From: Ignavibacteria bacterium | Lineage (GTDB): Bacteria > Bacteroidota > Ignavibacteria > Kapaibacteriales > UBA961 | Assembly (NCBI GenBank): GCA_016873735.1 | Contig: VGWD01000004.1 | Span: 1 to 64,000 of the forward strand | Direction: 5' to 3' | DNA: 64,000 nucleotides | Part shown: one piece after another, positions 30,432 through 48,413 of the stretch | Layout: the number at the start of each line of letters is the position of its first letter | Position numbering within the stretch: position 1 is the stretch's first letter | Program-made: the position numbers and the translations under genes | Notes under the pieces: model-generated | The model's database searches: none | Seen by the model: only the letters and a program-made list of their open reading frames with translations | What the model was told of the DNA's origin: nothing

Positions 30432-32627
30432 TCAATTCATTGCATTAAAAGGCTGATAATATCCTGAGTCCATTAACTTGAATGTTTGGGGATATTCTTT
30501 TTCATATGTGGTATTTGGAGATGTACCTGCCGCCACAAACACTGTTCTTGCAGACATTATATGCAGTTCTCCTTTTCTTTCTTCACCGGTATGCTCAAAT
30601 TTCACCGATTCTATTGCTCCATAAGAATCTAGAATGCATTCAATCGGTGATAATTCTTCTATGATTGTGATACCTTCTTCTAATGCTTCATTGACTTCTT
30701 CATGATTCAATTTATAAGCAGGCGATTGATTCAGCTTTTTACGATAAATCAATGTTACGCCACCCCATTCTTTGAGATAGGGAAGGAAATTGGGTACTTC
30801 TCCTTTCATGCTCGACATTGTTCGTACTTCATGAATGATGTTTCCATGCTCGAAGAAACACTGCGCCGTAATGCGTTCTTCTTCATCATACATTTCGGTA
30901 AAGTAAGATGGGTATTCTTCCAACATGGTCTTAGCATGCAGGTAGAACTTCTCGACCTGAATCGGATAATATGCAAGTGTTTCTGTTGCGGTATCGATGG
31001 CAGTGAGTCCGCCACCGATAACGATGGCCGGTAATGACACTTGTAGATTTGCCATCGAGTCCATTCTTGCCGCGCCTGTCAATTGCAAAGCCATGAGAAA
31101 ATCCGAAGCTTTTCTAAGTCCTCTACTCAAATTGTTTTTCATGCGAATCAATGTTGGTTTACCTGCACCTGTTGCCAAGGCAATATGAGTAAATCCAAGT
31201 TTCCATGCATCTTCAATCGTCAAAGTACCGCCAAAGCGAACTCCATCAAGGATCTTGAAATTTTCTCTTCGTTCAAGAAGCAATTGCAGAACGGTCAGGA
31301 AGTTTTTATCCCATCGTGAAGTGATGCCATATTCGCTCACACCGCCGAATCCTGATATGATTCGATCATCCAATTCCTTTTCAATTGTTGCTTTGAAGGA
31401 CGGCAGCGGATCATCTTTTTTCAAACCATAGATATCGAGTGCTGACTCAATTTTTAATCCTTCTACTGCAACAACTGCAAAACCTTCATTCAATAAATAA
31501 TGCGACAAGGTATAACCTGCAGGACCCAAACCAATAACCAATACCTTATTTCCATTATAGGGAAGAGCATATGGTCTTTTCACATTCAATGGATTCCACT
31601 GCATGAGTAAGGCATATAATTCCATTCCATCATTAAGAGAAAGAATATCGGACAAAACCGAGGTTTCAATTTTGGGAATATTGACCGGTTCTTGTTTTTG
31701 AAAAATGCAACCTTTCATGCAATCATTGCAAATTCGATGTCCTGTACCTGCGCACATGGGATTATCAAGCATCACCATTGCCAAAGCGGCTATTGGATAA
31801 CCTTCTCTGCGGAGAAGATGCATTTCAGAAATCTTTTCATCAAGCGGACAACCCTTTGTCTCAACTCCAAGTGGATTTTTCTTTATGCTTCCATCTTTTT
31901 CATGAATGCCTTTGGAACATGAATCTTTTTCACGTTCATGACATATCATGCAATAGTCAACTTGTTTGGTAATTTCTCTTCTAGTACCACGACGATCCGT
32001 CAAGGCAAAGCCATCACGCTTTCTATGATGATGTGCCTCATAGGACACCACCCCATCATTCTCATGTACAATAGCATGTTCAAGATGATCAAAGTCTAAT
32101 TTCTTACCTACAAACTCACTTATCCAATCAGTGATGAGATTGTTTTCTCTCAAAGATAAATACAATAACTCAGCTTGATCGAGCATATCTTTTGCCGAAT
32201 CACCTTGTTCAGATAGTTTCACGACGATATTGGAAAAGTCGAGCTCTCGATCACCTGAAGATTTGATGTTCAATGAATCAAGCAGGGATATAAACACTGC
32301 TTCAGTATCGTTTATTGCATCATCGCCAAGAAGGATTCCCCTTCTTCTGATTAGTGCTTTTTTTGTGAAGTCTGCTTTTGCTTGAATCACAATGTTTTCA
32401 GCAACAAGTGCCTCCTTGATAGCAGAAAGCCCTTTATCATCGGAGATGAATGCACTGATATATAATTCAAAGACGATTGCCGTATCTATCAATGCTTGTG
32501 AGAGTGGTTTTCCGGTTAAAGCCCCCTTTTGTAATTCAACATATGTGGGCCATATTTCCGGAAATTGTTCCTGCATGAAGCTCAGAAATGCTTTGTGATG
32601 ATGTGCTGAGCTGAGTGTATCCTTCAT
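30432..32627 (-). CDS. Large FAD/NAD(P)-dependent oxidoreductase, GltD-like, with Cys-rich N-terminal half
   Basis: 731 aa; Cys motifs CMICHEREKDSC...GCPLDE...MCAGTGHRICNDCMKGCIF; VLVIGLGPAGYTLSHYLLNEGFAVVAVEG; AIVIGGGLTAIDTATE. Confidence 0.75.
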   Translation of the reverse strand: MKDTLSSAHHHKAFLSFMQEQFPEIWPTYVELQKGALTGKPLSQALIDTAIVFELYISAFISDDKGLSAIKEALVAENIVIQAKADFTKKALIRRRGILLGDDAINDTEAVFISLLDSLNIKSSGDRELDFSNIVVKLSEQGDSAKDMLDQAELLYLSLRENNLITDWISEFVGKKLDFDHLEHAIVHENDGVVSYEAHHHRKRDGFALTDRRGTRREITKQVDYCMICHEREKDSCSKGIHEKDGSIKKNPLGVETKGCPLDEKISEMHLLRREGYPIAALAMVMLDNPMCAGTGHRICNDCMKGCIFQKQEPVNIPKIETSVLSDILSLNDGMELYALLMQWNPLNVKRPYALPYNGNKVLVIGLGPAGYTLSHYLLNEGFAVVAVEGLKIESALDIYGLKKDDPLPSFKATIEKELDDRIISGFGGVSEYGITSRWDKNFLTVLQLLLERRENFKILDGVRFGGTLTIEDAWKLGFTHIALATGAGKPTLIRMKNNLSRGLRKASDFLMALQLTGAARMDSMANLQVSLPAIVIGGGLTAIDTATETLAYYPIQVEKFYLHAKTMLEEYPSYFTEMYDEEERITAQCFFEHGNIIHEVRTMSSMKGEVPNFLPYLKEWGGVTLIYRKKLNQSPAYKLNHEEVNEALEEGITIIEELSPIECILDSYGAIESVKFEHTGEERKGELHIMSARTVFVAAGTSPNTTYEKEYPQTFKLMDSGYYQPFNAMN

Positions 32628-33346
32628 TATCTACTTTGTATTCTTGATTGAATTGATGAACCTGTACGAATAAAATACAGACCATTTGGTGATGAATCCA
32701 GAATCTGATTCACTTCATGATTAGTCATATGTTGTGCTATCATCACCCCTTTCGCATTATAGATATCCGAAAAGGTCTCTTGAGCTATAATATCTTCTTG
32801 AATCGAGGATGTGCCTTGAGAGCGATAAACCAATACATAGAAGTCTTCGATGGTGATTTGGCCAACGCCAAATGAATTGGGCAAAATTGTATGAGCTTTT
32901 TTCTCATCGCACCTAATTCTGAGTGATGCACCACCACGATCGGTTAACACCACTGAGTCTGTTCCCGTTCCCAATGGATATTCCCATGAAAACTTCATCC
33001 ACTTCTTATCTGCTTTCCATGGAGATACTTGAATCCAAAAGGTATCTGCTTTTTGCAATGGTTCTGTATTTCTGATATCGCGATATGAAAACATGTCAAC
33101 TTGGCTCGAGAATGAACCATCCTTGTTCATGTCCAGAACCGCAACGGCATGCGCACCAGTAATCGGGTGCAGAGGTGGAATTTCCTTTTCCCCTAGTGCT
33201 GCATCAATTCCATCTGTCGCACCTTTCACAAATCCGATGATCACACTTGGTTTATCATTGGATGTATTGTCTTCATATGTCAAACTAAACACTTGCGCTT
33301 GTACCATTGCCGGAAATGTGATGAGTAATAAAATCAATGATTTCAT
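32627..33346 (-). CDS. Secreted protein with possible T9SS-like C-terminus
   Basis: Signal peptide; C-terminal SDIYNAKGVMIAQHMTNHEVNQILDSSPNGLYFIRTGSSIQSRIQSR resembles a T9SS tail. Confidence 0.5.
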   Translation of the reverse strand: MKSLILLLITFPAMVQAQVFSLTYEDNTSNDKPSVIIGFVKGATDGIDAALGEKEIPPLHPITGAHAVAVLDMNKDGSFSSQVDMFSYRDIRNTEPLQKADTFWIQVSPWKADKKWMKFSWEYPLGTGTDSVVLTDRGGASLRIRCDEKKAHTILPNSFGVGQITIEDFYVLVYRSQGTSSIQEDIIAQETFSDIYNAKGVMIAQHMTNHEVNQILDSSPNGLYFIRTGSSIQSRIQSR

Positions 33347-33423: not shown

Positions 33424-36400
33424 TTATCTATTTACAATGATTCTCTTTGTGGTTACTGTACCATTGACATTTACAGTCATGGTATATGTACCTGCAGCAA
33501 GTTCATCTGTATTGATAGCCATTGTATTACCATTGAATGTTGCAGACTTTACAGTTGAACCGAACATGTCAACAAGCGCAACATGTACTGTACCTGTAAC
33601 TGCTGTACGAACATTGATCAATGAAGAAGCAGGATTTGGATAAACATCAACTGATGTATTATCATCTTGTTGCTTAGCAAGTCTGATGATCGTTGAATTG
33701 TTTACAACCAAATTCTGAGTTGCACCGATTGATCCAAGAACAGCACCTGTTCTAGCATCGAATGCTGTATATGTACCATTCAAACCTTCTGATGTCAATG
33801 TCATTGGGAATGTTACTCCCTGAACACGAATTGTCATGTCATTGCTGTTTGTTGCATAAGCATTATTGCTAAAGCGTACATCAAACATGTCTGGAGCGAT
33901 GACAGGTGGCAATTCAAAACGTGAAGGATTGACTGTGCCATTTTCAGAAACGCGAAGTGTATTGCTTCTTCCATCAATGTCAGAGACTGTGATTGAAGCA
34001 AGATTCAGATCGCCTGTTGGATTTGCAACTACTTTTGGTAATCCGGATCCTTTTACGCGATAGAAACCTTCGCCATAAACTTTGACCCAGTATCCCATTC
34101 CTGGTACTACTTCAGAAGTAGCATAGTAACCACGATCTGTTGTATAACCGTACACTTGATCTTTAAGAGCTTCAACTGCACCTGTTGACAATTCATAGGA
34201 GATGTCATTTACATTTGCGCGTGTTGAAGGTGAACCAACTGTGTTCCAACCATTGAAGAGATAAACTCTTTCTGTTTTTTCGCTGAATTCAGGTACTCTT
34301 GAACCAATTTGTGTTTGATCGAGATTATCACCAAACTTCACAAAGTAACCAACACCTGGTTGAAGTACTTGCTTTTGCTGATAAGAACCACTTGCAAATG
34401 TATATGGCTCAGTGATTGAGTTCGGGAATACTGCTTTCCAATTTGGATCGGATGGACGCAAAGGCAATGACAAGAAGTTCCAGCCTTTCTTCACAACGGG
34501 ATAAGATGCTGATTGTGGCAAGCGATATTCAATCAAGAATGACTTGATACGTGCATCACGAATTGTGAATGAGCGACCATAATCTCCATCCGGAGTAGCT
34601 TCTCGCATGTTCACAGTGAAGATACCACCATTCAATGTATCACGGAGATACAAGTCCGCACCTTCCGGGAAGTCGCGAATATCCCAGTTGATAACAACAG
34701 GATAATTGTTTGCGCCATTTGCATTGAAGCGGCAGAGATATACAAGTGTAGTATCTGATGTGAAATCACGAATGTCACGAGAACGTGAATCTCTTCTGTA
34801 GTTCTGACCACTGAATGCATCCATTTGGATATCACCAAGACCATTAGGAGCTACTTCGAAACCATTTGCATCTTTAACCCAAGGTGTATACCAGCGTGCA
34901 TAGAATCCTGTAGGAGCATTCAATCCATCATATGCATATTCACCAAACAATGAATCAGGAGCATCAGATGCTCTGTGACCGGAACCAAATACAAGATTGG
35001 TTGAATCACCATTGCCATTGTTAGCTGTGCTTGAGTTACTTACTGTAATCTTGATACCTGGATCCAAACCAAATTCTGGTGTCTTTGGATTATTGTAGCT
35101 TCCTGGTTCAACAGGATTGCGAAGGTGAATGAATGTCACACGCAATTTGACCGGAGAAACTTTTGCAGAAGCTGAAGTTACTGTGATATATCCGGTATAG
35201 ATACCAGCATATTCAGCATCTCCACCTCTCAATTCACCTGTTCTTACATAGATTCTGAAACGCATTGGATCTTGAGCAGGCACGATTTGATTACGAGCAT
35301 CTTTCAAGTTTGGAGGAACAGGACCATTGATACCATTATCAATGAAGTCAATATCTCCATCACGTGTGATGCTTCGGATACCAGGAGGAATAAATCCAGG
35401 TGCCACTGCTTGGAAAGATAACCAAGGTGAGTCCGAACGAAGGTTGATACCTGTGAGACGACTTCTTGTCGTTGAGTTCCAGAGAATGATATCTCTGAAT
35501 GCATCTGTTCCATCGGTTGATGAGTCAATGATAATTGGCTTTGTCATCTCCCACAATGAACCGTCTGCTGCACTCACATCTTGACGTACTTGATCTTGAC
35601 CGTTTCCTTGGAAATCGCGGAAAGAGATTTGAGGAACAGCTCCGATATTAATCCAAACCATACCTGGACGGCTTGGATATTCAGGAAGAAGATCTGGCGT
35701 CATGCTGATACCACCTAGACCGATAGAATCGCGCTTGTCTTTGCGATATGTTTTATTTCTATATGGATTATCAGCGGCACTTTCAGATACCAATGGGAAT
35801 GGATTTGTAACGCCTACGCGTAAATCATTATAGGTCAAAGAGTCATTGGAGATGTACAATGCTGACTTATCTGCACCATTATAAATTGTAGGCTGATTTG
35901 TCAATTGTGATTGTGACAATGTCACTTTCATGCGAAGGTACATCAACACTTCATAACTTCCATCAGGATTAGTTACAGGCAGTGGTTTTGTTGAGCGGCC
36001 GGTGATATACATTCTGCGGCCATATTTTGTTTCGGCACTCAATGCACCACGGAAATAGATACCGTAGCGAGTTTCGTCTGAAACATCATCAAATTCCAAT
36101 TCGAAACCTTTTGCAAGTGCATTGGTATCGGATCTTTTTGGACCTGTGAATTGTGCTCCAACTGCTTCAAAAACACGACCATCATACATTACTGAAAATG
36201 TGAATGAATAGATCGGTCCGCCGCTGAAACGCTTATCAACAACATTTTCAGAATCATACCAAAGATTCTTCATAAATACTGGGATTAAGACCTCGCGAAC
36301 GCGATCATCAGCATATCCCAACCAAATTCTACCGTCAGAGTACAAGTTACCATTGTAATTGTTTTCTCTGCCTGTGAGACTCAGCACAGGAATATCAGCC

Positions 36401-36513
36401 TTTTGCAATGACGCTTGACTAAATAGGTTCACTGAACCCATCAATGCAATGCACAAGGACAGAAAAAGAAGAGCCGAACTACGTCTCTTACCTCTTGTCG
36501 CGGAAGTTTGCAT
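33424..36513 (-). CDS. T9SS type-A sorting-domain surface protein (about 1029 aa)
   Basis: C-terminus VDVYPNPASSLINVRTAVTGTVHVALVDMFGSTVKSATFNGNTMAINTDELAAGTYTMTVNVNGTVTTKRIIVNR. Start 36513 chosen by GGAG upstream (track 36537). Confidence 0.85.
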   Translation of the reverse strand: MQTSATRGKRRSSALLFLSLCIALMGSVNLFSQASLQKADIPVLSLTGRENNYNGNLYSDGRIWLGYADDRVREVLIPVFMKNLWYDSENVVDKRFSGGPIYSFTFSVMYDGRVFEAVGAQFTGPKRSDTNALAKGFELEFDDVSDETRYGIYFRGALSAETKYGRRMYITGRSTKPLPVTNPDGSYEVLMYLRMKVTLSQSQLTNQPTIYNGADKSALYISNDSLTYNDLRVGVTNPFPLVSESAADNPYRNKTYRKDKRDSIGLGGISMTPDLLPEYPSRPGMVWINIGAVPQISFRDFQGNGQDQVRQDVSAADGSLWEMTKPIIIDSSTDGTDAFRDIILWNSTTRSRLTGINLRSDSPWLSFQAVAPGFIPPGIRSITRDGDIDFIDNGINGPVPPNLKDARNQIVPAQDPMRFRIYVRTGELRGGDAEYAGIYTGYITVTSASAKVSPVKLRVTFIHLRNPVEPGSYNNPKTPEFGLDPGIKITVSNSSTANNGNGDSTNLVFGSGHRASDAPDSLFGEYAYDGLNAPTGFYARWYTPWVKDANGFEVAPNGLGDIQMDAFSGQNYRRDSRSRDIRDFTSDTTLVYLCRFNANGANNYPVVINWDIRDFPEGADLYLRDTLNGGIFTVNMREATPDGDYGRSFTIRDARIKSFLIEYRLPQSASYPVVKKGWNFLSLPLRPSDPNWKAVFPNSITEPYTFASGSYQQKQVLQPGVGYFVKFGDNLDQTQIGSRVPEFSEKTERVYLFNGWNTVGSPSTRANVNDISYELSTGAVEALKDQVYGYTTDRGYYATSEVVPGMGYWVKVYGEGFYRVKGSGLPKVVANPTGDLNLASITVSDIDGRSNTLRVSENGTVNPSRFELPPVIAPDMFDVRFSNNAYATNSNDMTIRVQGVTFPMTLTSEGLNGTYTAFDARTGAVLGSIGATQNLVVNNSTIIRLAKQQDDNTSVDVYPNPASSLINVRTAVTGTVHVALVDMFGSTVKSATFNGNTMAINTDELAAGTYTMTVNVNGTVTTKRIIVNR

Positions 36514-36554
36514 GTGTAACTCCGTTAGATGATACATTAAAAATTATTATTTAT

Positions 36555-37673
36555 TTATTTACTTTCTATGTATTGAATATAATCGTTACCAAGCTTGAAG
36601 GCCTTTCTTCTGATAGCCTTCGTTGATCCATCAGTCGGGCAATCCGATTCGATGAATCGACCAAGAATATCATAGTAATCCGTGCATCGTTCTTCCTTCT
36701 CTATCTCTTCGTTGACACTTGAAACTGTATCCGGTTTTGATCTTCGAAAGAGTTTGAATATGGTCTCAGATCCTTCTTTGATTCGAACACAATCACATGC
36801 TGTGGTTTTGGTTGAAAACTCAATCTTGCGTTCAGTTTCTTGAGTTGTGGTTTTCGCTTTACCTTCGATAGTCATTGCAAGATATCCTGCAATGCCTCTT
36901 TTCTGCTTTGTAAGTACAATCGTTGTTCCACGAATGGATGCTTGAACATCTCTGACACTGTCGATCATTATTTTTTCGATGAGTAATGAATCACCGGCCA
37001 AACAATCAATCAATATTGTGTCATTAGCTGTTGCTTTTCCACAAAACACTTCACTTTTGAATGAAAATGTTGTTTGTGTATCAAGGTGGTTTACTGAATC
37101 TCTTAGTTCAGAAGGACTCGTAATTTGAATTATTGTATTCACGGTATCATATACTCTATTGAATATCTTTACCGATGAATCCACCTTTACAAATCTTGGT
37201 CCAATCCCAAATTCAAAACCCGGATCAAAAAATTCAATCTTGCAGACTGTTGAATCGGGACAGGTGGAATTAATCCATTCACCTCTTAAGGCAACTAAAG
37301 CACCATTACCAACCAAATTACCCCCTTTGAAATTTAAGTATCCAAATACCTTTGCCAATCCTATGGTATCCATACCAAAGAAAAAATTGTTCTGTGGTAT
37401 CTGGCTACTTATTGTGCCGAGTCTTAAACCTGCAGTGATTCTTACTTTCTTATCATCAAAACGAATGTATAAGTCATAAGCCTGCAGACTGTCGATGCTT
37501 TCCAGCTTGGTATCAATTGTCAAAGTAAATTCATTTGTGTTTGCACCCAGACAATAATCACTTTCATGTCTGCTATTCAAATCAAATGAAACTGTTCTTG
37601 AAATTTGACCCCACATTGCTGTGTTGCTCACCATTAATGTGAGCAACACAGCAATATGTGAGATATATTTCAT
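36555..37673 (-). CDS. Secreted protein with cohesin-like segment
   Basis: 372 aa; signal peptide; NEFTLTIDTKLESIDSLQAYDLYIRFDDKKVRITAG...GLAKVFGYLNFKGGNLVGNGALVALRGEW resembles a cohesin/CBM2-like layout. Confidence 0.5.
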   Translation of the reverse strand: MKYISHIAVLLTLMVSNTAMWGQISRTVSFDLNSRHESDYCLGANTNEFTLTIDTKLESIDSLQAYDLYIRFDDKKVRITAGLRLGTISSQIPQNNFFFGMDTIGLAKVFGYLNFKGGNLVGNGALVALRGEWINSTCPDSTVCKIEFFDPGFEFGIGPRFVKVDSSVKIFNRVYDTVNTIIQITSPSELRDSVNHLDTQTTFSFKSEVFCGKATANDTILIDCLAGDSLLIEKIMIDSVRDVQASIRGTTIVLTKQKRGIAGYLAMTIEGKAKTTTQETERKIEFSTKTTACDCVRIKEGSETIFKLFRRSKPDTVSSVNEEIEKEERCTDYYDILGRFIESDCPTDGSTKAIRRKAFKLGNDYIQYIESK

Positions 37674-37682
37674 GCAAATGTA

Positions 37683-40406
37683 TTATCGCTTGATAATGAC
37701 ACTGTTTGCTGCCTTCACACCATGCTTCATCGTAATTGTGTAGACACCTGCAGGCTTGCCTGCAAATGCATTCAATGTCAATGTCTCTTGATTGAGTGAG
37801 AATGTACCAATCACACGACCATTTACATCAGATACTGACAATACTCCGCCTTTGAATTCTGCAGGTACTGATACTGTTACTTCTTGATCGAATGGATTTG
37901 GATATGTGGCAATAGCACCGGTTACACCGTTCTGTTGCTCAATATTCTCTTTACCAAGTACAACATCATTTACAATTACTTTCTCTGCTACAAGTTCATC
38001 ATCTGAATCAATCTTGATAAATGCAATTGGTTCATTGATGTTCAATACTTGTGGAGCAGCAAAGTGAACTGTCTTTGAGTCATTGATGATCAAGTCATTG
38101 GTATTATTAGCACCAACTTCTGATGACATCACTTTGCCATTGAATGTAATAGAGAAAGCGAGTGCTTTGTTTGACTTTGCTGTTGCATATACAGGGACAA
38201 TCTTGCCACCATCATTTGTTGCAACAGGTGCACCAAATGCGATAGGTGATGAAGGCTTACCTGCAATAACTTTACCATATGATGGTATTGTGTCCCACAA
38301 CCAAGGAAGTGAAGGAACTCTACCGGCATTATAGTGAAGAATCAAAGCAGCATCCAATGCTGTTGCTTCATAATAAATCAGACGAAGTGGACCTGCATCC
38401 GGAGGCAATGTTGTCAATGTTTCTGTAGAATCCCAAAGAATGCGGATACCGAATGTATCCATATCGATCGGACGCTTCCATGTTGTAACATCGGTCAAGT
38501 TGTCCCATGAACGTGAACTATAATAGTAGCGACCATTATGGTTTACGTCTGCATGATATGCATTTCCGTATTGAAGTGTGTCTTCTCTTAGAGAATCTGG
38601 CAAGCTACCATCATTTACCAACCAACGCATAACCAAGCGAGCATCATTAACTGTCACAAAACGATTTTGTGGCATGCCTGCATGCTTACGTGTACGGAGC
38701 TGTGTCAAATCAGCATCACCATCACCCCATGTAGGAACTACAAAGCGAGGAATGCCACGGAAGAGAATACGACGACCTTCTGATGAACCGGTTCCACCAC
38801 TTGGGCGCCAGCCATCTGTCAATACTGTAGAAGTACGTGATGTTTGTGGTGCATTGTATGTCAAACCGTTTAAGTAGTCAGAAGAAACTGCAGGATTCAT
38901 GGTACCAAGATTACCTTTGACACCAACTGAAGCACCTTTTACATTTACTTCAACTGCAGTTGTTTTTGTATTATTACCAACATCACCATATGCAAATTCA
39001 ATAGCACCTGCATAGTTGTTTGGATAACGCTCATCAACACCTTCATAGAAGATTGCCTGGAAGTTTGCCACAGAGTTAGGCAATGTTCTGTCCATAACAT
39101 TCAAATTCTTCCATTGAACTACCAAACGACGGTTTGGATATGAACCAACCACTACATATGAGATTTCAGAATTCATGTAGAATCCGTTTGCAGATGGTAT
39201 TGTAGGTTCATTTCCAAAACGATAGATGTGATTACCCCAGAATGGAGCAATTACATTGAATGGATATGAAGAGCTGTTTAAGAACAAACCTTGTGGATTG
39301 TCATTAACGATGTGAGAGAAAATTTGTGGGTTGGAGAATGTTGTATAACCATTCACGCAAATCCACATATTGCTTTGTCTTTCACCACCGAATGTAAAGT
39401 TAAAGTTGAACCTGTCCATGTCGATTGTGTAATATCCATCATCTCTGTCAGATCCAATAAGGAAACGTGAGAAGAAGTCATTCGGATTGATCGGAATTGA
39501 ACGCTGATAAGCTTCAAAACGAATTGTCTTCAAGGATGTACCTGATACAGGCCATGCTGTGCTCAAATCTTTTGAAGTTGAAGCTGTTGTTTGGTCTGAC
39601 CATGACAAACCATTTACCCAACGAGCTTTTTCATCATCATTGATACCTACCGCTGCACCAACCGCGTCTGTTGCCAAACCGGTAAATGCACCATATGCAA
39701 ATTCAAAATCTGCATGCTTATTGTAGTTTGCAAGATTGAAAGTAACATCACCGGGTACATTTCTTTCATAGAATGTAACCTGGAAACTTCCTACTCTTCT
39801 TGCATCATTCCCGTCATTCTTTACATTGACATTCAAATTTTTCCATTGAATTGTCAATCTTCTCTTTGGAGCAGAACCCCAAACTTTCCATGTTACTTCT
39901 GATGGAGTAAATCCTACATCAGAAGCAGTTCTTACAATGTGATTACCCCAATATGGAGCAATAACCATTGTATTGTTATCGCCTTTGAACAATTCAGATG
40001 GAACATTAGATACACCTGCAATGCTATTCAAAGCAACATATCCATTTGTAGTAACTTGAATGCTGTTGATTGTATTACCAGCATAGCTAATATCAAAAGG
40101 AACTTCATTATTTGGATTGCCGGAACCAACAGACAGTGAATAATCACCCTCATCATTTGTTCCATTGAAAACTATGGCATTACCACCTGTAACTTCCTGA
40201 TATGGAAGATCCACGCGATAAGGAGCCAAATAATATGTGCTCAAAGAGTTTGGAGCAATACCGTAATCGATATACAGCTTACCTGAAACTACTTGAGGAG
40301 CATCAAATTCATCGAAAATTCGTTGAGCTGTTGCATACTGAGATGCGGAAGCAAGCAGTAGCGGCGCAGCAAGCAACGATATACATTTTTTTATAAAATT
40401 TCTCAT
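37683..40406 (-). CDS. T9SS surface protein with duplicated ~200-aa module, dockerin-like and cohesin-like segments
   Basis: Two copies of TTNGYVAL/VNGYTTF...IAPYWGNH/IAPFWGNH...RRLTIQWKNLNV/RRLVVQWKNLNV...FEFAYG/IEFAYG; T9SS-type C-terminus (ATYPNPFDQEVTVSVP...AGVYTITMKHGVKAANSVIIKR). Start 40406 (track 40460). Confidence 0.8.
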   Translation of the reverse strand: MRNFIKKCISLLAAPLLLASASQYATAQRIFDEFDAPQVVSGKLYIDYGIAPNSLSTYYLAPYRVDLPYQEVTGGNAIVFNGTNDEGDYSLSVGSGNPNNEVPFDISYAGNTINSIQVTTNGYVALNSIAGVSNVPSELFKGDNNTMVIAPYWGNHIVRTASDVGFTPSEVTWKVWGSAPKRRLTIQWKNLNVNVKNDGNDARRVGSFQVTFYERNVPGDVTFNLANYNKHADFEFAYGAFTGLATDAVGAAVGINDDEKARWVNGLSWSDQTTASTSKDLSTAWPVSGTSLKTIRFEAYQRSIPINPNDFFSRFLIGSDRDDGYYTIDMDRFNFNFTFGGERQSNMWICVNGYTTFSNPQIFSHIVNDNPQGLFLNSSSYPFNVIAPFWGNHIYRFGNEPTIPSANGFYMNSEISYVVVGSYPNRRLVVQWKNLNVMDRTLPNSVANFQAIFYEGVDERYPNNYAGAIEFAYGDVGNNTKTTAVEVNVKGASVGVKGNLGTMNPAVSSDYLNGLTYNAPQTSRTSTVLTDGWRPSGGTGSSEGRRILFRGIPRFVVPTWGDGDADLTQLRTRKHAGMPQNRFVTVNDARLVMRWLVNDGSLPDSLREDTLQYGNAYHADVNHNGRYYYSSRSWDNLTDVTTWKRPIDMDTFGIRILWDSTETLTTLPPDAGPLRLIYYEATALDAALILHYNAGRVPSLPWLWDTIPSYGKVIAGKPSSPIAFGAPVATNDGGKIVPVYATAKSNKALAFSITFNGKVMSSEVGANNTNDLIINDSKTVHFAAPQVLNINEPIAFIKIDSDDELVAEKVIVNDVVLGKENIEQQNGVTGAIATYPNPFDQEVTVSVPAEFKGGVLSVSDVNGRVIGTFSLNQETLTLNAFAGKPAGVYTITMKHGVKAANSVIIKR

Positions 40407-40434
40407 TGTTGTCTCCATTATTGTACTCAGGATC

Positions 40435-40453
40435 GGCCCCCTCTCGGGAGGCC
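40435..40453 (-). other. GC-rich hairpin in the 5' leader of the 37683..40406 gene
   Basis: GGCCTCCCGAGAGGGGGCC on the minus strand; 7-bp stem (one G-T wobble) 29 nt upstream of the ATG, in an AT-rich intergenic region. Confidence 0.5.
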
Positions 40454-40469
40454 TACCCAAGTATTAAAC

Positions 40470-43400
40470 TTATCTTGCTACTACTACATTTCTGATGACT
40501 ACATCATTTCCAATTGTCAACTTAACAGTATAGACGCCGGGGGCAACAGGTGAACCATTGCTGTATCTTGTATTCCAAGAAACATTGGATGTTCCAACAC
40601 CGAGGTCTGCATTGAATGTGTTGACAATATTTCCGAGAAGGTCAAACACTTGAACAGATACATTCTCTCTTGAAGAGGTGATTGCAAAGTTCACTGTTTC
40701 ATTTGCCGGATTTGGATTTGCTTCTGATACCAAAGACTGACCCATCACTGAAGTTGGTTGATCTTCATTTACATTACTTGCATGATCATAAAGAATCACG
40801 AAAGAATTGATGAAGTCAGGCTTGATTGTAATCTTGAAGTCATCGCCTGTTGCTTCTGCATCGATCAAGGCGTTTTTCTTACCTGTACCGGTTGCCATGT
40901 CATACTGGAAGTAGTCGAATGAACCACCATCCATAATTCTCCATGAACCACCGCTTGGATTGCGTCTTGAATCAGTGCGTGAAGGAACAGTAGACATCTT
41001 CCATGTCAAGGTAATCGGTGTTGCCGGAGATGTGTTTCCGAGCTCCGCACCTGACTGGAAGCGTGCTTTATACATTGTAGTTGACTTATCACCACTTACC
41101 GCTGTCGGGAAGATATTGCGATGAATACCATTTGTTTTGATGATCGTCCAGCGAGCATCGAAAACATCCGTTGGTGGGAATGGAGGAAGTTCAAATTCAC
41201 AATAATTTGCATCAAGTTTGCCTGCATCTGGTTCTTTTTCACCGGTTGTAGCATTTCTTGCTGTACCGAATGAAAGATCCTGATATGCACCTGCATTGTT
41301 TTGAACACGAATTATTGTCACAAAATCAGTTACATCAGAAACATTCACTTTGAATGTGTAGTAAGTTTGATCTGTGCCATCATCTGCTTTGATACGGATA
41401 GTTACTTTACCATCTGTGATCAAGTTTGAAGGTATGTTCAAAGGACCATTTGACTTGATTGTAATCTTATTGTTAAGCGCTGCTGCTGAATCAGGTTTTG
41501 AACCATTGATAACTGATGGCTCAAGTGTCAAATTGCCGATCGGAGGATCGATTGAAACTGTAATTGATTCTTTTGCTTCACTTGGAGTCTCACGAAGCAA
41601 ATCAATATCACCAACCATGATCGAATCTTCATAAGATTCACCATTCGCGATGCAACGAATTGCAGGGGATGTAATGGTTCTTGGTTTATGATTTGTTTCT
41701 TCTACTTCAAGATTGATAACGCGAAGGTCTGTCAATCCACCTGCATCGGTGATGAGAACTGTTACCTTCTCTGCACCTGCTCCGATCCGTGGAGCATCTT
41801 TAACGCCGGGTGTACCATAGAGAAGACCGCTCTTAGGATTGATCTTCAACCATTTTGGTGTTGTTTTGACATTTGTTAGATCCCATACACCTGCTTCCGC
41901 AAAACATGGATCCTTAGGAACTGATGGTCTTGCTTCATCTGTATAAATCAGTTCGAATGTTTGTGTCTGACCGAAGTTAGGATCAAAGTATTCGATTCTC
42001 TTTGTGAAGTCCAACAATGCAGGATTGTAATCCAAATCTTCTTTCGCTTTTGGCAGACTTGTTGTTCTGATTTCCGGCGAAACATTGATAAAGATACGCT
42101 TAGTCAAATATGACACACCGCTATGGCCATCATTTACAACGATTGTGATTGTAGTGTCTGTATTCAATCCACCGTTTACTCTTGCTACAGCATCTTTTGG
42201 TGTGAGCATTGTAATTGCTTGAGCTCTTTGAACTCTTGCATTTAAATGACCCAATGTCGTAAAGTCAAAACCAAATGAACTTGGTTGACCTGTTGCTGTA
42301 AACAAATATGAATCTGCCATCCAGGATGGTTTGGTTTGTGACAATTCATCTGTCGCTAAATCATCGCTTGGACGAATTGCTTTTGATTCAAATGAGTATG
42401 ATGTGCGACCGTAACGGAAGTCCCAGCCTTCTGCAATAGATGCTAGATCTTCTGCTTCGTCATCTGTTTCAAAGTCAACGAAGAATCTCAATGAGTCTGT
42501 TACGTTTGCTACGAATAAGTTTTGGCTAGCACCTGCTGCAGCACATGTAGCACTTGTAAGCAATGTTGGTTTGAATACCGGAGCACTGTCAATCACATGG
42601 ATTGAGAAGCGATAGGTAATTCTTGTTGCATTGCCAAAGTCTACTGTATCCTGATTTGCAAAACGTGCATTTTCAGAATCATATGATTGTGCATGATAAT
42701 ATGATGGGTACAAGTATATGAACTTGGATACTACATTCTTTGTGAATGCTGCTTCTAGTTCTGCACCTGACAATGATGTTCCCATCAATGCATTCTTTGC
42801 TGCATCGGTAAGATTCAATGCTCTGATTGCATCTGTACCTCTGAAGTTAGGTGCCCAGTTTTGTGCTGTAACTTGTACATATTCACCACCTGGTACCACA
42901 TATGGATTCGATGGCTTACCGAACAATGCGATACGGCCTGTTGCACCATAATATGGATGTGTATTTGCAAGTTCATTTGTCCATACAGTATCTGCTTTCA
43001 ACCAACGGCGAATACCTGTAAGTTTTGTATTTGGATCTGTATCAGGTGTAAATGTTCCATTTCCATTTAGGAATAATGGTGTCCATGTGTACTCGAGTTG
43101 TGTGAAGATATTATTATCTATATTTCTCAAGTTCATTGCCCAACGTGGATCATACATCTTGTTTGAGTCAATAGCTGTGATAACAAAGATTGTATCACGA
43201 CCGATTTTTTGACCTGCTGTAGATGCACGGTTATAGCTTATATCTTCATTAACAAAAACTTTGTCTTTGAACGATGTGAAGAACAATGGATTAACATTTG
43301 GATTAGCAACGCTTACTGCACTTCCTGTCCAAACCGGACCTGGAACTGAACCGTTGATGCGGAATGAGATACCTTTGTTGATAGCTTCATTCACTCCTTC

Positions 43401-46400
43401 TCTCCAAAGAACTGAACGTGAAACAACACGAATATAGTCGCCTGGGCGGACAGGCAATGAGTTGTAGTTTTCACCAGCATAATATGTTACTGCACCGTTT
43501 GGAATGGAAGCAGGCAATGATGCGCGGTTGACATACGTTACTCTGTCTCCACCATAATTATGTGTTCTGTCATCATCAAGTTGCATTTCCCATCTTCTGC
43601 TTCCAAGAGCTGCACTGTCTTCTGAAACAGGATTGTCAGCAATGAAAGGAAGAAGTGAATTTGTTCCACCATAGTTTACCAAACCTTCATAGAAGCGGCG
43701 AACGCGTGATGTTGTACCTGTTCTTTCTGCTGAGTCAGCAACAAAATCAACACGACCACGGAGATATTCACGAGGATATGCACCGTCATTGTCTGTTGTT
43801 TGTTCATCTGTCATCTGCTTCATGTTGACACGTACATAATCACCGGTAGAGTCATTGATAACAAAGAATACTGATTCATTCAATACCAATGGATCATCGT
43901 TATTTGTGTTGATGTCTTCACCATTATACTGAGCTCTCGACTCAAGGAACAATGGATATCCAATTGGATGTGTGAATTCGCCTGTTCTGTGATCGATTGC
44001 AAATTCACCTTGAAGCTTGCGCAATTCTTTCCAAAGAAGATTCACACCACCATTTTCATAATTGGCAGAATCTGTCGCAAATGGATCGCGAAGCATTCTA
44101 CGAACTACTTTTCCTGATGATTGAGTAGCACTCAAAGGATATGATCTGAGTTTTGGAGGAATACCAACTGCAAAGTCTTCAATTGGTGATCTTCTACGAA
44201 CTGAATAATCTGCTGTCTTGATGTCTGTCCCTTTATCGAACATGTCATATACCATACCTGACATCAACAATGTATCAGGTATGTCAGTGGCTTTGATTGG
44301 CTTATAATTATAATCCAATCCTGGTCGACCTTGTGAGTTTGTCGCATTGTAAACGAAAGGACCTTGCTGGGTTGACTGTTCATCTGTATATGATGCTCTA
44401 TTTATAAAGCGAAGATGCGTATTACCATTTCCGCGTACAAAGAATGTTTCTTGTATCGCACCATTTGCAAAGCCTGGCTGAGCAGTTGGAAGGATTGTTG
44501 AAACATTTGCTTCAGTGCGGCCCCAGTAATTACCACGGAGTGTATCAACTCCACCATTACCGGTACCATAACCACCTGCCAATACACCTTTTGTATTTGG
44601 TGCATCAGGAAGACGAATCAAGAAACGTGCATCATTGCTATGAATAGCATTACCTGCTTCATGATAGCTTCTGAAAGGAATTGGACCAACGATTTCACCA
44701 TAAAGAACTGCACCTGCGAGATCGCTTGATGCTAGATTCTTCCCAGATACAAGTGGACCTTCAATAAGATTTTGCGATCTTCCAATCTTAGAATGAGCAA
44801 CGTTTCCTGTGATTAATGAGTGTTTGAAAACAAGTGCCAGTGCATAGTTGTCAGAGTAAACGGCCGCACCGGTAAATGCTTGATTGTTCTGAATACGAAC
44901 GCGGTTGAACAAGATGGTATCTTTTCTGAAGAATCTATCTTTTACAACACTGTCGAGGATATAAATCGCACCACCAAGACCAATACCGTTTTCACGAAGT
45001 CCAGAAGGTGAAGGATTTGTGACATAACCTGGATGATAGCGCTTGACATCAATTATGTTTTCGCCGATTTGCGATGTACCTGAACCCATCAAACGTTCAT
45101 CAGGATTGATATCTGCATTATTATTAATGAATCTTGTCAACATACGTACATCTGCAGGTACTGCAGCAACTTTTTTGTTGTTGAACATTGAATCATTTGA
45201 AACAAATGTTCCAATTTTGATTGTTCCATCTGCTTCAACTGTAAAGTTATCAGCATCTGAAATAAACATGCGGTCAGATGATGTCAATGGATTGATCATT
45301 GCAATCGCTCCACCTGAACCATTGATAACACTATTGTTTTCGAACAATGTACCTTTAACAAGGTTGAGATCAGCATTCAATGAATATAGAGCTCCACCGC
45401 CACGTACAAACTTCTTTTCTTCTACTGTAGGGTTGATGCCGATCGCACCTACACTATTATTGCGGAAATCACTACGTACGATTCTTACAACTCTCTGCCA
45501 TGCCGGAACAGGTGGCTCAATGCTTGGCAAATGAATTGCAATCGCTCCACCGGAGAATCCTGCGGTGTTTCTGAGATAGTTGATGCTGAATCCTGGTCCA
45601 TATGATTGTGCCAAAGGCAAGTCATTAATGAAACCACCGGCGCCATATGAAGTCATGTTACGCTTTGTATAAATTGCACCACCATGAGCGATAGCTTTAT
45701 TGTCTTCGAAATCAATTCTACGACCATAATCTCTGATTCTAGGGAATCTTGAGTCAGAACCACCAACGATTGGTGAAGGACGTGGATCGGTATTACCATC
45801 AACATAGATAGCTCCACCTGAACTCGCTCTATTGTTCTTGAATTTTGTTCCCTGAACTGAGCTACCGCGGATCTGCAAACGACCATAAGTATTCTCATGG
45901 AAGATAGCTCCACCCAATGCATAATCTGCATTGTTTTTTGGAGACAAGAATGGTGTTTCCGCTGAGTTGTTTTCAAACTCACCATTGATGACCATTGATG
46001 TAAATGCACCAATGTACAATCCACCACCACGAGCACCGCGTGAACTTAATCTATCTTGAAGATTCAAAACTTTGTTGTTAACGAACTTTACATAGTCTTT
46101 CTCACCAAAACGGATTTTATCATTCAAAGGATTTAGTGTATTGATACGAATTGAGTCGTTTACACCAAGACCAATTTCGAGTCTTCTGTATTCATCATCA
46201 AAACGTCCACCAATATACATAGCGCCACCCCATGCCTGGTTTTTCCAGTCTGTGGGTTGTCCATCTGTTGAATCTACTTTTACTCTTTTGACTGTATTAT
46301 CGGCAAGAATTTGACGTCCACCAACTGTCACTGTATCTACATAAGCAACAAGTGTGCGGTTATTGTCAAATGTTAAACGACGAATACGGCCAAGATAAAC

Positions 46401-47588
46401 CGCGATACGTGGATCGTCTACTGATTGACGACGTGCATCATTTCTTGAAACCAATGGCTCACTTGAAGGAGCGCCATCTGTGTCAAGCATGTCCAAAACA
46501 ACAATGCTGTCATTCTCACGAACAACAGATCCATCAGCATTTGTGATGTTAGGATTTTTGTCTGATTGATAGAATGTCAAACCCAAACCTGCTGTATCCG
46601 GATATGTACCTCTTCCATAAGGTGCCTGCACCATTTGAAGAGCTCCTCCACGGAAACGAGCCATATTGTTTAGGAATCTACAGTCAACCAACCATGTACG
46701 AACGGAGAATGATGTCAATGCACCACCAGATCCATTTGTCCACTTGAGTGTTTCTTTGTTCAAGACGATTGTGGAGTTTTTCAAAGCACCGGACAAACCG
46801 AGTGTATCATAGTAGAAACGATTGTCTACTGTGGTATCCTTACGGAAATCTTTGAAAGCCACATTTCTAAAATATGCTGCACGAGCGCCCGGCAATACAA
46901 TGATATGTCCCCATTCACGAGAATAATCATTCACAGCTTGACCGCGGAAAACGATCTCTGACCGTGTGATGTTAGGTGAGTTTCCGCCTTTTCTCTTCCA
47001 AGGTTGGAAGCGAACGACATCATCGTTCTCGAACAAGCGTGATGCCATGAACATGATGGCGCGCTCTGGAGAGATAACGCGACCACCTGCAATTGCTCCC
47101 CTTTCCGGAGTATCATTGGTATTGCTCAAATTCGAAACCCCGGTTACATTACCAGATGCATTCTCATTTAGTGTCACGTTAAAAATCACATTGCGCTTAC
47201 CATCCGCAATGCTCAACTCTGGTTTTGTGCCGATTGAAACAACACTATTACCCGTGTAATATGGGCTGTCGTTAAAATCAACACCTACCGCTGGAGCCAC
47301 AGGGTTGTATGTGGCCGACATATCACCGTCGGCAATGATACGGCCACCGACAGAGTCGATCATCCTTCCATTGTCCAAAAACACAACTTCAGTTCCCGGC
47401 TCAATAAGCAGTGTACCGGCAATCATAAGAGTACCGTTGATCTGATAAATAGAGTCCTTCAAGAAGATGCGCACATCATTCGGCGCAATTCTTCCGGAAA
47501 CTTGTACGCGCGGCTTTTGCGCATAACTGGTGCCAGCCATAAGCAATAAAGCGAATAGCATGGTACCCAGACGAAGCAAACGTCGCAT
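40470..47588 (-). CDS. Giant T9SS type-A surface protein (about 2372 aa) with Pmp-like beta-helix repeats and Ig-like modules
   Basis: Recurrent GGA(I/L) and FxxN-type motifs (GGAIYVDG, FEDNKAIAHGGAIYTK, GGGALYSLN, FENNSVINGSGGAIAM); Ig-like WLKINPKSGLLYGTPG; T9SS CTD. Start 47588 after GGAGG (track 47648). Confidence 0.88.
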   Translation of the reverse strand: MRRLLRLGTMLFALLLMAGTSYAQKPRVQVSGRIAPNDVRIFLKDSIYQINGTLMIAGTLLIEPGTEVVFLDNGRMIDSVGGRIIADGDMSATYNPVAPAVGVDFNDSPYYTGNSVVSIGTKPELSIADGKRNVIFNVTLNENASGNVTGVSNLSNTNDTPERGAIAGGRVISPERAIMFMASRLFENDDVVRFQPWKRKGGNSPNITRSEIVFRGQAVNDYSREWGHIIVLPGARAAYFRNVAFKDFRKDTTVDNRFYYDTLGLSGALKNSTIVLNKETLKWTNGSGGALTSFSVRTWLVDCRFLNNMARFRGGALQMVQAPYGRGTYPDTAGLGLTFYQSDKNPNITNADGSVVRENDSIVVLDMLDTDGAPSSEPLVSRNDARRQSVDDPRIAVYLGRIRRLTFDNNRTLVAYVDTVTVGGRQILADNTVKRVKVDSTDGQPTDWKNQAWGGAMYIGGRFDDEYRRLEIGLGVNDSIRINTLNPLNDKIRFGEKDYVKFVNNKVLNLQDRLSSRGARGGGLYIGAFTSMVINGEFENNSAETPFLSPKNNADYALGGAIFHENTYGRLQIRGSSVQGTKFKNNRASSGGAIYVDGNTDPRPSPIVGGSDSRFPRIRDYGRRIDFEDNKAIAHGGAIYTKRNMTSYGAGGFINDLPLAQSYGPGFSINYLRNTAGFSGGAIAIHLPSIEPPVPAWQRVVRIVRSDFRNNSVGAIGINPTVEEKKFVRGGGALYSLNADLNLVKGTLFENNSVINGSGGAIAMINPLTSSDRMFISDADNFTVEADGTIKIGTFVSNDSMFNNKKVAAVPADVRMLTRFINNNADINPDERLMGSGTSQIGENIIDVKRYHPGYVTNPSPSGLRENGIGLGGAIYILDSVVKDRFFRKDTILFNRVRIQNNQAFTGAAVYSDNYALALVFKHSLITGNVAHSKIGRSQNLIEGPLVSGKNLASSDLAGAVLYGEIVGPIPFRSYHEAGNAIHSNDARFLIRLPDAPNTKGVLAGGYGTGNGGVDTLRGNYWGRTEANVSTILPTAQPGFANGAIQETFFVRGNGNTHLRFINRASYTDEQSTQQGPFVYNATNSQGRPGLDYNYKPIKATDIPDTLLMSGMVYDMFDKGTDIKTADYSVRRRSPIEDFAVGIPPKLRSYPLSATQSSGKVVRRMLRDPFATDSANYENGGVNLLWKELRKLQGEFAIDHRTGEFTHPIGYPLFLESRAQYNGEDINTNNDDPLVLNESVFFVINDSTGDYVRVNMKQMTDEQTTDNDGAYPREYLRGRVDFVADSAERTGTTSRVRRFYEGLVNYGGTNSLLPFIADNPVSEDSAALGSRRWEMQLDDDRTHNYGGDRVTYVNRASLPASIPNGAVTYYAGENYNSLPVRPGDYIRVVSRSVLWREGVNEAINKGISFRINGSVPGPVWTGSAVSVANPNVNPLFFTSFKDKVFVNEDISYNRASTAGQKIGRDTIFVITAIDSNKMYDPRWAMNLRNIDNNIFTQLEYTWTPLFLNGNGTFTPDTDPNTKLTGIRRWLKADTVWTNELANTHPYYGATGRIALFGKPSNPYVVPGGEYVQVTAQNWAPNFRGTDAIRALNLTDAAKNALMGTSLSGAELEAAFTKNVVSKFIYLYPSYYHAQSYDSENARFANQDTVDFGNATRITYRFSIHVIDSAPVFKPTLLTSATCAAAGASQNLFVANVTDSLRFFVDFETDDEAEDLASIAEGWDFRYGRTSYSFESKAIRPSDDLATDELSQTKPSWMADSYLFTATGQPSSFGFDFTTLGHLNARVQRAQAITMLTPKDAVARVNGGLNTDTTITIVVNDGHSGVSYLTKRIFINVSPEIRTTSLPKAKEDLDYNPALLDFTKRIEYFDPNFGQTQTFELIYTDEARPSVPKDPCFAEAGVWDLTNVKTTPKWLKINPKSGLLYGTPGVKDAPRIGAGAEKVTVLITDAGGLTDLRVINLEVEETNHKPRTITSPAIRCIANGESYEDSIMVGDIDLLRETPSEAKESITVSIDPPIGNLTLEPSVINGSKPDSAAALNNKITIKSNGPLNIPSNLITDGKVTIRIKADDGTDQTYYTFKVNVSDVTDFVTIIRVQNNAGAYQDLSFGTARNATTGEKEPDAGKLDANYCEFELPPFPPTDVFDARWTIIKTNGIHRNIFPTAVSGDKSTTMYKARFQSGAELGNTSPATPITLTWKMSTVPSRTDSRRNPSGGSWRIMDGGSFDYFQYDMATGTGKKNALIDAEATGDDFKITIKPDFINSFVILYDHASNVNEDQPTSVMGQSLVSEANPNPANETVNFAITSSRENVSVQVFDLLGNIVNTFNADLGVGTSNVSWNTRYSNGSPVAPGVYTVKLTIGNDVVIRNVVVAR

Positions 47589-47687: not shown

Positions 47688-48413
47688 TCAATTTTCGTGC
47701 CAACCAAGGCGGGCCAAGCCCATTTTTGCCTCATTGGTATAATCAGAGCCGGAATTCTTTGCAACAAGACCCTTCATGACTGTTATTGCTTTTTCTTTTG
47801 CAGTGCCCGAACCACCGGCCGATGCCTTCTCATAGTTCAAAGCCGCGAACAATGCATAACGCTCATATAATGGACTATCTTTTGCACCTGCAGCAGCTTC
47901 ATATAATGTAGCTGCTTCTTCATAATTCTTCATTTCTTCATTGCATGCTGCCAATCCTGCCTTTCCACCTGCGCTGACAGTTTGATCGTCGCTTCCGGCC
48001 GCAGATTCAAAATATGGCATTGCTTCGGAATATTTGCCAATATTCAAAAGTGAAGTGCCTGCATACAAAGCAGAGAATGCACCTGCAGGCGTACCACCAT
48101 ATTCACTCACGATTGCCTTCAATCCTATGACCTTTCCACCACGAATTGAACGAGCAGGATCGCCATCCAGAGCTTTTTGGAATTGACCAGTCTCATAATA
48201 CGATGATATTCTAGACAGTGCAGTCATGGCTTCTTCATTCGTTGTTTCCTGCATTCCGGAATAAAAATAATATCCGAAACCTATCGCAAGAATACCCACC
48301 AACACATATCCAAACATCTTAAGCTTGGCAATCAATGCATCTTGCTCAGGAATTTCTTCTCTCACATTCCAACCATTTTCGGTTGTTTCGATTGTTGATT
48401 CAATTTCTGACAT
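47688..48413 (-). CDS. Membrane-anchored TPR protein
   Basis: Single TM segment (MFGYVLVGILAIGFGYYFY) followed by TPR-like helical repeats (NIGKYSEAMPYFESAAG; EEMKNYEEAATLYEAAAG). Confidence 0.8.
   Translation of the reverse strand: MSEIESTIETTENGWNVREEIPEQDALIAKLKMFGYVLVGILAIGFGYYFYSGMQETTNEEAMTALSRISSYYETGQFQKALDGDPARSIRGGKVIGLKAIVSEYGGTPAGAFSALYAGTSLLNIGKYSEAMPYFESAAGSDDQTVSAGGKAGLAACNEEMKNYEEAATLYEAAAGAKDSPLYERYALFAALNYEKASAGGSGTAKEKAITVMKGLVAKNSGSDYTNEAKMGLARLGWHEN

Follow-up and report, generated by a model that had tools for sequence, protein, structure and literature searches.

A conserved gene block of predicted T9SS cargo in Kapabacteria encodes a dockerin with interrupted calcium loops and candidate cohesin partners

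Cohesin–dockerin pairs are best known for holding cellulosomes together. A preliminary description of a minus-strand block in a Kapabacteria genome had noted cohesin-like and dockerin-like stretches in consecutive genes for large secreted proteins, with no glycosidase among them, and had proposed that these proteins bind each other. We analysed the block within a window of 64,000 nucleotides (the whole stretch of DNA examined). The genome, of 2.26 Mb and 99.9% complete, belongs to Kapabacteria, an uncultured lineage, and its close relatives by DNA bear names such as Candidatus Kapaibacterium, Ignavibacteria bacterium and Chlorobiota OPB56. The open reading frames and Pfam/NCBIfam searches bore out the four genes, their order and three T9SS C-terminal sorting domains (CTDs; in P2, P4 and P5). 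The proposed block limits hold for these four genes, but the conserved unit is slightly wider and also includes P1 and a TPR gene. The gene order on the minus strand is TPR (241 aa), P5 (2392 aa), P4 (925 aa), P3 (372 aa), P2 (1037 aa) and P1 (239 aa), with intergenic gaps of 9–77 nt to the first possible start codons (9 nt between P4 and P3, 17 nt between P3 and P2). The genes and their sorting domains are as follows.

47688..48413, minus strand: TPR protein, first gene of the block, 241 aa, YfgM-like with an N-terminal membrane anchor (Pfam TPR_21, 2.9e-6); syntenic in almost all loci uncut by contig ends
40470..47648, minus strand: P5, giant secreted protein of 2392 aa, likely ATG at 47588; Pmp-type repeats of a right-handed beta-helix (Chlam_PMP, 2.5e-10), an Ig-like part (He_PIG) and a T9SS CTD
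40479..40715, minus strand: CTD of P5 (Por_Secre_tail, 2.5e-7)
37683..40460, minus strand: P4, 925 aa, likely ATG at 40406; beta-sandwich domain(s), dockerin, weakly cohesin-like domain and T9SS CTD
37686..37913, minus strand: CTD of P4 (Pfam and TIGR04183)
36555..37673, minus strand: P3, 372 aa; N-terminal cohesin, second beta domain and degenerate C-terminal sorting domain
33424..36537, minus strand: P2, 1037 aa from the first ATG or 1029 aa from the second; probably cohesin-like N-terminal domain, several beta domains and T9SS CTD
33433..33645, minus strand: CTD of P2 (6.9e-12)
32627..33346, minus strand: P1, last gene of the block, secreted protein of 239 aa with a weak T9SS CTD (TIGR04183, 1.5e-4, slightly under the cut-off); syntenic

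By homology, P2, P4 and P5 are T9SS cargo. Each carries a Por_Secre_tail CTD in a genome that has a T9SS, the combination that characterises type A cargo, and the window genome holds about 70 CTD matches together with the T9SS sortase PorU. The P4 domain scores under the Pfam cut-off (3.8e-5) and passes TIGR04183 (24.9 bits, cut-off 23). No passing CTD was found for P3 in the window genome, yet PF18962 matches 19 of 40 P3 orthologues; the sorting domain of P3 has decayed in the genus of the window. Signal peptides were called by eye. As had been described, there is no glycosidase in the block, and no Pfam or NCBIfam enzyme family was detected among the scanned proteins P1 to P5. Within the window genome, no PF00404 dockerin other than that of P4 passes. 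Membership of a cellulosome was considered and rejected, given the lack of enzymes, of a multi-cohesin scaffoldin and of any such second dockerin.

The dockerin-like segment of P4 comprises the following parts.

38289..38732, minus strand: P4 dockerin, residues 577–724, with two calcium-loop/helix repeats, both loops interrupted (PF00404 after excision; PDB dockerins, E 2e-8)
38646..38690, minus strand: insertion of 15 aa in calcium loop 1 (TQLRTRKHAGMPQNR), from the alignment
38352..38513, minus strand: insertion of 54 aa in calcium loop 2, partly a beta-hairpin in the prediction

Each insertion opens its calcium loop between positions 6 and 8, and the length of the second varies, from 54 aa in the window to 36 aa in an orthologue (L098) and about 13 aa in a related family (f18). 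The intact P4 protein has no PF00404 match, and Pfam/NCBIfam and PDB profile searches of the intact segment returned no dockerin, because of the loop insertions; PF00404 appeared in 1 of 41 intact P4 members, at E 0.056. Once the insertions were excised, PF00404 reached its cut-off in all six orthologues tried (4.3e-6 for the window, 2.9e-10 for the best, and 1e-4 for the weakest, exactly at the cut-off of 22.9 bits), scores that contain some tuning since the excision sites were picked to restore a 12-residue loop, while the helices, the spacing and the LP end were not picked. In control runs, excision of the loop 2 insertion alone sufficed, misplaced cuts scored nothing, and shuffling of the helices brought the score down to 17–18 bits, under the cut-off. 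A profile built from 21 excised sequences placed solved PDB dockerins first, from E 2e-8 downwards. Structure prediction was less informative: AF2 modelled the intact segment with low confidence (pLDDT 64), and dockerins made up 4 of the 18 Foldseek matches of the model, none at a significant E-value, with a Ruminococcus flavefaciens dockerin (5m2s_B) on top at E 0.65 and TMt 0.52.

The dockerin consensus reads WGDGDxDxS...QNRFVTVNDARxIxRSxATxxPLDSxRxRxAYHGDVNHNGRYY...ANEYDAALIxxYxAxRxPxLPW, in which loop 1 is D-G-D-x-D ... D and loop 2 is D-V-N-H-N-G ... D. In the 41 sequences the W is invariant, as are D3 and D12 in loop 1, D1, G6 and D12 in loop 2, and the final LPW; N3 of loop 2 is kept in more than 90% of them, and D1 of loop 1 is missing in family f4. 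P4 thus shows what defines a type I dockerin, namely two loop–helix repeats with calcium ligands at positions 1, 3, 5 and 12. On this sequence evidence, the segment is a true dockerin homologue with interrupted loops and conserved calcium ligands, as the preliminary description had suspected; neither of the two outcomes that it had named as contrary, unrelated folds or missing calcium loops, was obtained. The insertions might alter calcium binding. A further copy of the interrupted dockerin, with 41% identity across the stretch that matched, was seen in another genome of the same genus (G119; L146, 1–5344), near the C-terminus of an ORF of about 1780 aa.

Three beta domains of the same operon had been read as cohesin-like.

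37164..37592, minus strand: cohesin domain of P3, residues 28–170 (hhalign; AF2/Foldseek)
35752..36384, minus strand: probable cohesin-like domain at the N-terminus of P2, residues 52–262 (PF00963 under the cut-off; PDB profile; hhalign)
37926..38258, minus strand: beta domain before the CTD of P4, residues 735–845, at most weakly cohesin-like

Profile comparison and a predicted fold like the nine-strand jelly-roll of cohesins identify the P3 N-terminus as a true cohesin homologue, in agreement with its initial assignment. The P3 profile aligned with cohesins that flank canonical dockerins within the order at an hhalign probability of 95.7% (E 9.6e-9). Two of these lineage cohesins score above the PF00963 cut-off on their own (4e-10 and 1e-8). 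In Pfam, P3 of the window has no PF00963 match and 5 of 40 orthologues have a weak one; the protein at the P3 position in a related order (L144) exceeds the cut-off, with two matching stretches (2.3e-12). The AF2 model of P3 has a pLDDT of 83 overall and mostly of 91–97 in the first domain, and Foldseek matched it to cohesins 1g1k (E 3.8e-7, target-normalised TM 0.76) and 5lxv (0.66). Among the 50 matches listed, which include many beta-sandwich proteins, single-domain cohesins are the best by target-normalised TM; Ig adhesins and integrins ranked higher because they span two domains.

The cohesin-like start ascribed to the 1029-aa protein (P2) is probable. PF00963 is the sole recurrent Pfam family there, seen in 11 of 40 members, always under the cut-off (best 0.011), the top PDB profile match is a cohesin at E 0.33, and hhalign comparison gave P 0.0003. 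Aligned directly with the P3 cohesin, the domain gave a weak hhalign match (P 0.001) in which the shared strand motif alone was aligned. For P4, the preliminary description had claimed a cohesin-like stretch in addition to the dockerin; while the dockerin stood, the cohesin assignment came out weak, with Pfam cohesin in none of 41 members and hhalign P values of 0.42 against one cohesin set and, at best, 0.0011 against another, composed of lineage cohesins.

Further cohesins and dockerins occur elsewhere in the lineage. The arrangement cohesin–dockerin–cohesin–CTD is seen in further T9SS proteins of the order (L225, L227 and L231 in family f8; L229, L230 and L232 in other genera), whose dockerins are canonical or mildly interrupted, and many genomes in the order contain ORFs of about 2000–2200 aa with a canonical dockerin (L226, L228). 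PF00404 exceeds its cut-off in 73 of 122 genomes; the genus of the window has none besides P4. In the window genome, four more PF00963 domains adjoin T9SS CTD matches (L011, L012, L013 and L014, on contigs C38, C1, C12 and C13).

Synteny across relatives, a check proposed with the preliminary description, was found to extend well beyond the genus. The order TPR-P5-P4-P3-P2-P1 on one strand was present at 40 loci of nine families and at three loci of related orders, as well as in nearly all named loci, contig-end cuts aside; it is kept in nearly all Kapabacteriales families, with one exception, and in two related families. When the proteins were used as queries, most genomes of the order yielded orthologues of P2 and P4. 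The P5 core is likewise conserved: 80 sampled genomes of the order have it, as do families f16 and f18, which belong to the same class. The P4-type dockerin occurs in 97 of 122 genomes (87 of 101 good ones) and is nearly always single. The exceptional family, f8, has neither the dockerin nor the P5 core in any sampled genome, though PorU is present, and searches with the proteins found no P2 or P4 orthologues in it. All these counts refer to sampled genomes, mostly drafts, so absences are soft. Conservation on this scale suggests that these secreted proteins may serve a core function.

Within the block, conservation is uneven. Mean pairwise identity across the order is 60% for the dockerin core, the highest of the domains measured, and 14–49% for the others: 45–49% for P5 outside its CTD, 36% for the P2 N-terminus, 28% for the beta domain after the P4 dockerin, 27% for the P3 cohesin and 14% for the second domain of P3. 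Over dozens of genomes, key residues are kept far above chance in the dockerin-like stretch and in the cohesin-like stretches of P3 and the P2 N-terminus. Between the window and a second species (L083), P3 has diverged far more than its neighbours, with 54% identity against 83–85%. Domain content varies as well: P4 of family f1 has its N-terminal beta-sandwich twice, and the P4 proteins of other families are shorter (about 620–740 aa), with matches that span the second copy only.

We put roughly even weight on the block being a conserved surface-assembly operon in which the P4 dockerin docks into one or more cohesins of the same operon. P5, P4, P3, P2 and perhaps P1 would reach the cell surface via the T9SS, as their CTDs and PorU suggest by homology. 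There, the calcium-dependent dockerin of P4 would plug into the P3 cohesin, the P2 N-terminal domain or both, and this docking would tie the T9SS-anchored proteins, including the beta-helix giant P5, into one non-enzymatic complex, layer or adhesive coat. The loop insertions would decorate the dockerin and could set its partner specificity. The high identity of the dockerin core fits an interface under constraint. As to the partner, P3 would fit better by its stronger cohesin homology and as the adjacent gene, and the P2 N-terminus by conservation alone; that P3, the clearest cohesin, evolves fastest in the block is not what one would expect if it were the partner of so conserved a dockerin. 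Mirror-tree partial correlations with the dockerin, 0.13 and 0.15 for the P2 N-terminus and P3, singled out neither.

By partial distance correlation, the dockerin is most strongly linked to the beta-sandwich of P4 itself (0.31), which bears on a different arrangement: the dockerin may pair within P4, with the preceding beta-sandwich or the following beta domain, to form a rigid module, and the operon proteins would then not be joined by cohesin–dockerin contacts. Proteins of the lineage that carry a cohesin and a dockerin in one T9SS chain recur, and they allow such intramolecular pairing. The following beta domain is an awkward partner, being far less conserved than the dockerin core and showing no Pfam cohesin signal, and we consider pairing within P4 unlikely. 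Nor do we much favour a second reading, in which the two folds are generic calcium-stabilised or Ig-like adhesin blocks and any partner would come from a gene elsewhere or would be a glycan or a foreign surface. At least four other PF00963 domains in the window genome, several of them adjoining T9SS CTDs, the resemblance of the P3 model to Ig-like adhesins and integrins, and the Pmp-type beta-helix repeats of P5 would suit it, but the block as a whole is strictly co-conserved and the dockerin keeps both its calcium loops and its LPW end, and we consider this reading unlikely too. That the block is instead an accessory of the T9SS apparatus, an attachment or surface maturation complex, is disfavoured and seems very improbable, since, for all the order-wide conservation together with a periplasmic TPR protein, the block proteins bear cargo CTDs and family f8 has PorU while its sampled genomes lack the dockerin and P5 core and yielded no P2 or P4 orthologues.

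We regard the block as a new, non-enzymatic T9SS variant of the cohesin–dockerin systems, probably with a role in surface assembly. Like the type I pairs of the cellulosomes of Clostridium thermocellum and Ruminococcus flavefaciens, it combines a homologous dockerin (two EF-type loop–helix repeats, LP end) with the cohesin fold, and it would be expected to be extracellular and to assemble in a calcium-dependent manner. Unlike in cellulosomes, no catalytic module, multi-cohesin scaffoldin or CBM was found in the block, which has one conserved dockerin per genome, calcium loops split by insertions, and export by the T9SS. Peer and colleagues reportedly described non-cellulosomal cohesin and dockerin proteins in Archaea and Bacteria in 2009; the Kapabacteria modules likewise lie outside cellulosomes, but both kinds occur in one operon that is conserved at the level of the order and beyond.

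Two other systems that involve the T9SS are comparable. In Ca. Stygibacter (Cloacimonadota), a cellulosome-like T9SS scaffoldin has been proposed (PMC8542988); there too, cohesin and dockerin proteins occur in a Gram-negative lineage, and the scaffoldin is attached by a conserved C-terminal domain; its dockerins reside on hydrolases and its scaffoldin has tandem cohesins and CBMs (PMC8542988), whereas the Kapabacteria block has no enzymes and is a fixed operon. The S-layer of Tannerella forsythia is a T9SS-dependent surface layer built from CTD proteins; it consists of other proteins, and the abstract of the source mentions no cohesin–dockerin modules (PMC4175972). That the Kapabacteria proteins build a lineage-wide, S-layer-like or adhesive non-enzymatic lattice, unlike cellulosomes and held together by the interrupted-loop dockerin and the operon cohesins, is a tentative proposal that we regard as possible but somewhat doubtful.

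Among the papers covered by our literature search, none linked Kapabacteria with dockerins. Pfam-based surveys miss dockerins of the P4 type because of their interrupted loops. The interrupted dockerin provides a defined test object, with one dockerin and two or three candidate cohesins. If the proposed docking is true, cohesin–dockerin pairs would also serve as structural glue at the cell surface, and the block would open a first approach to the Kapabacteria cell surface.
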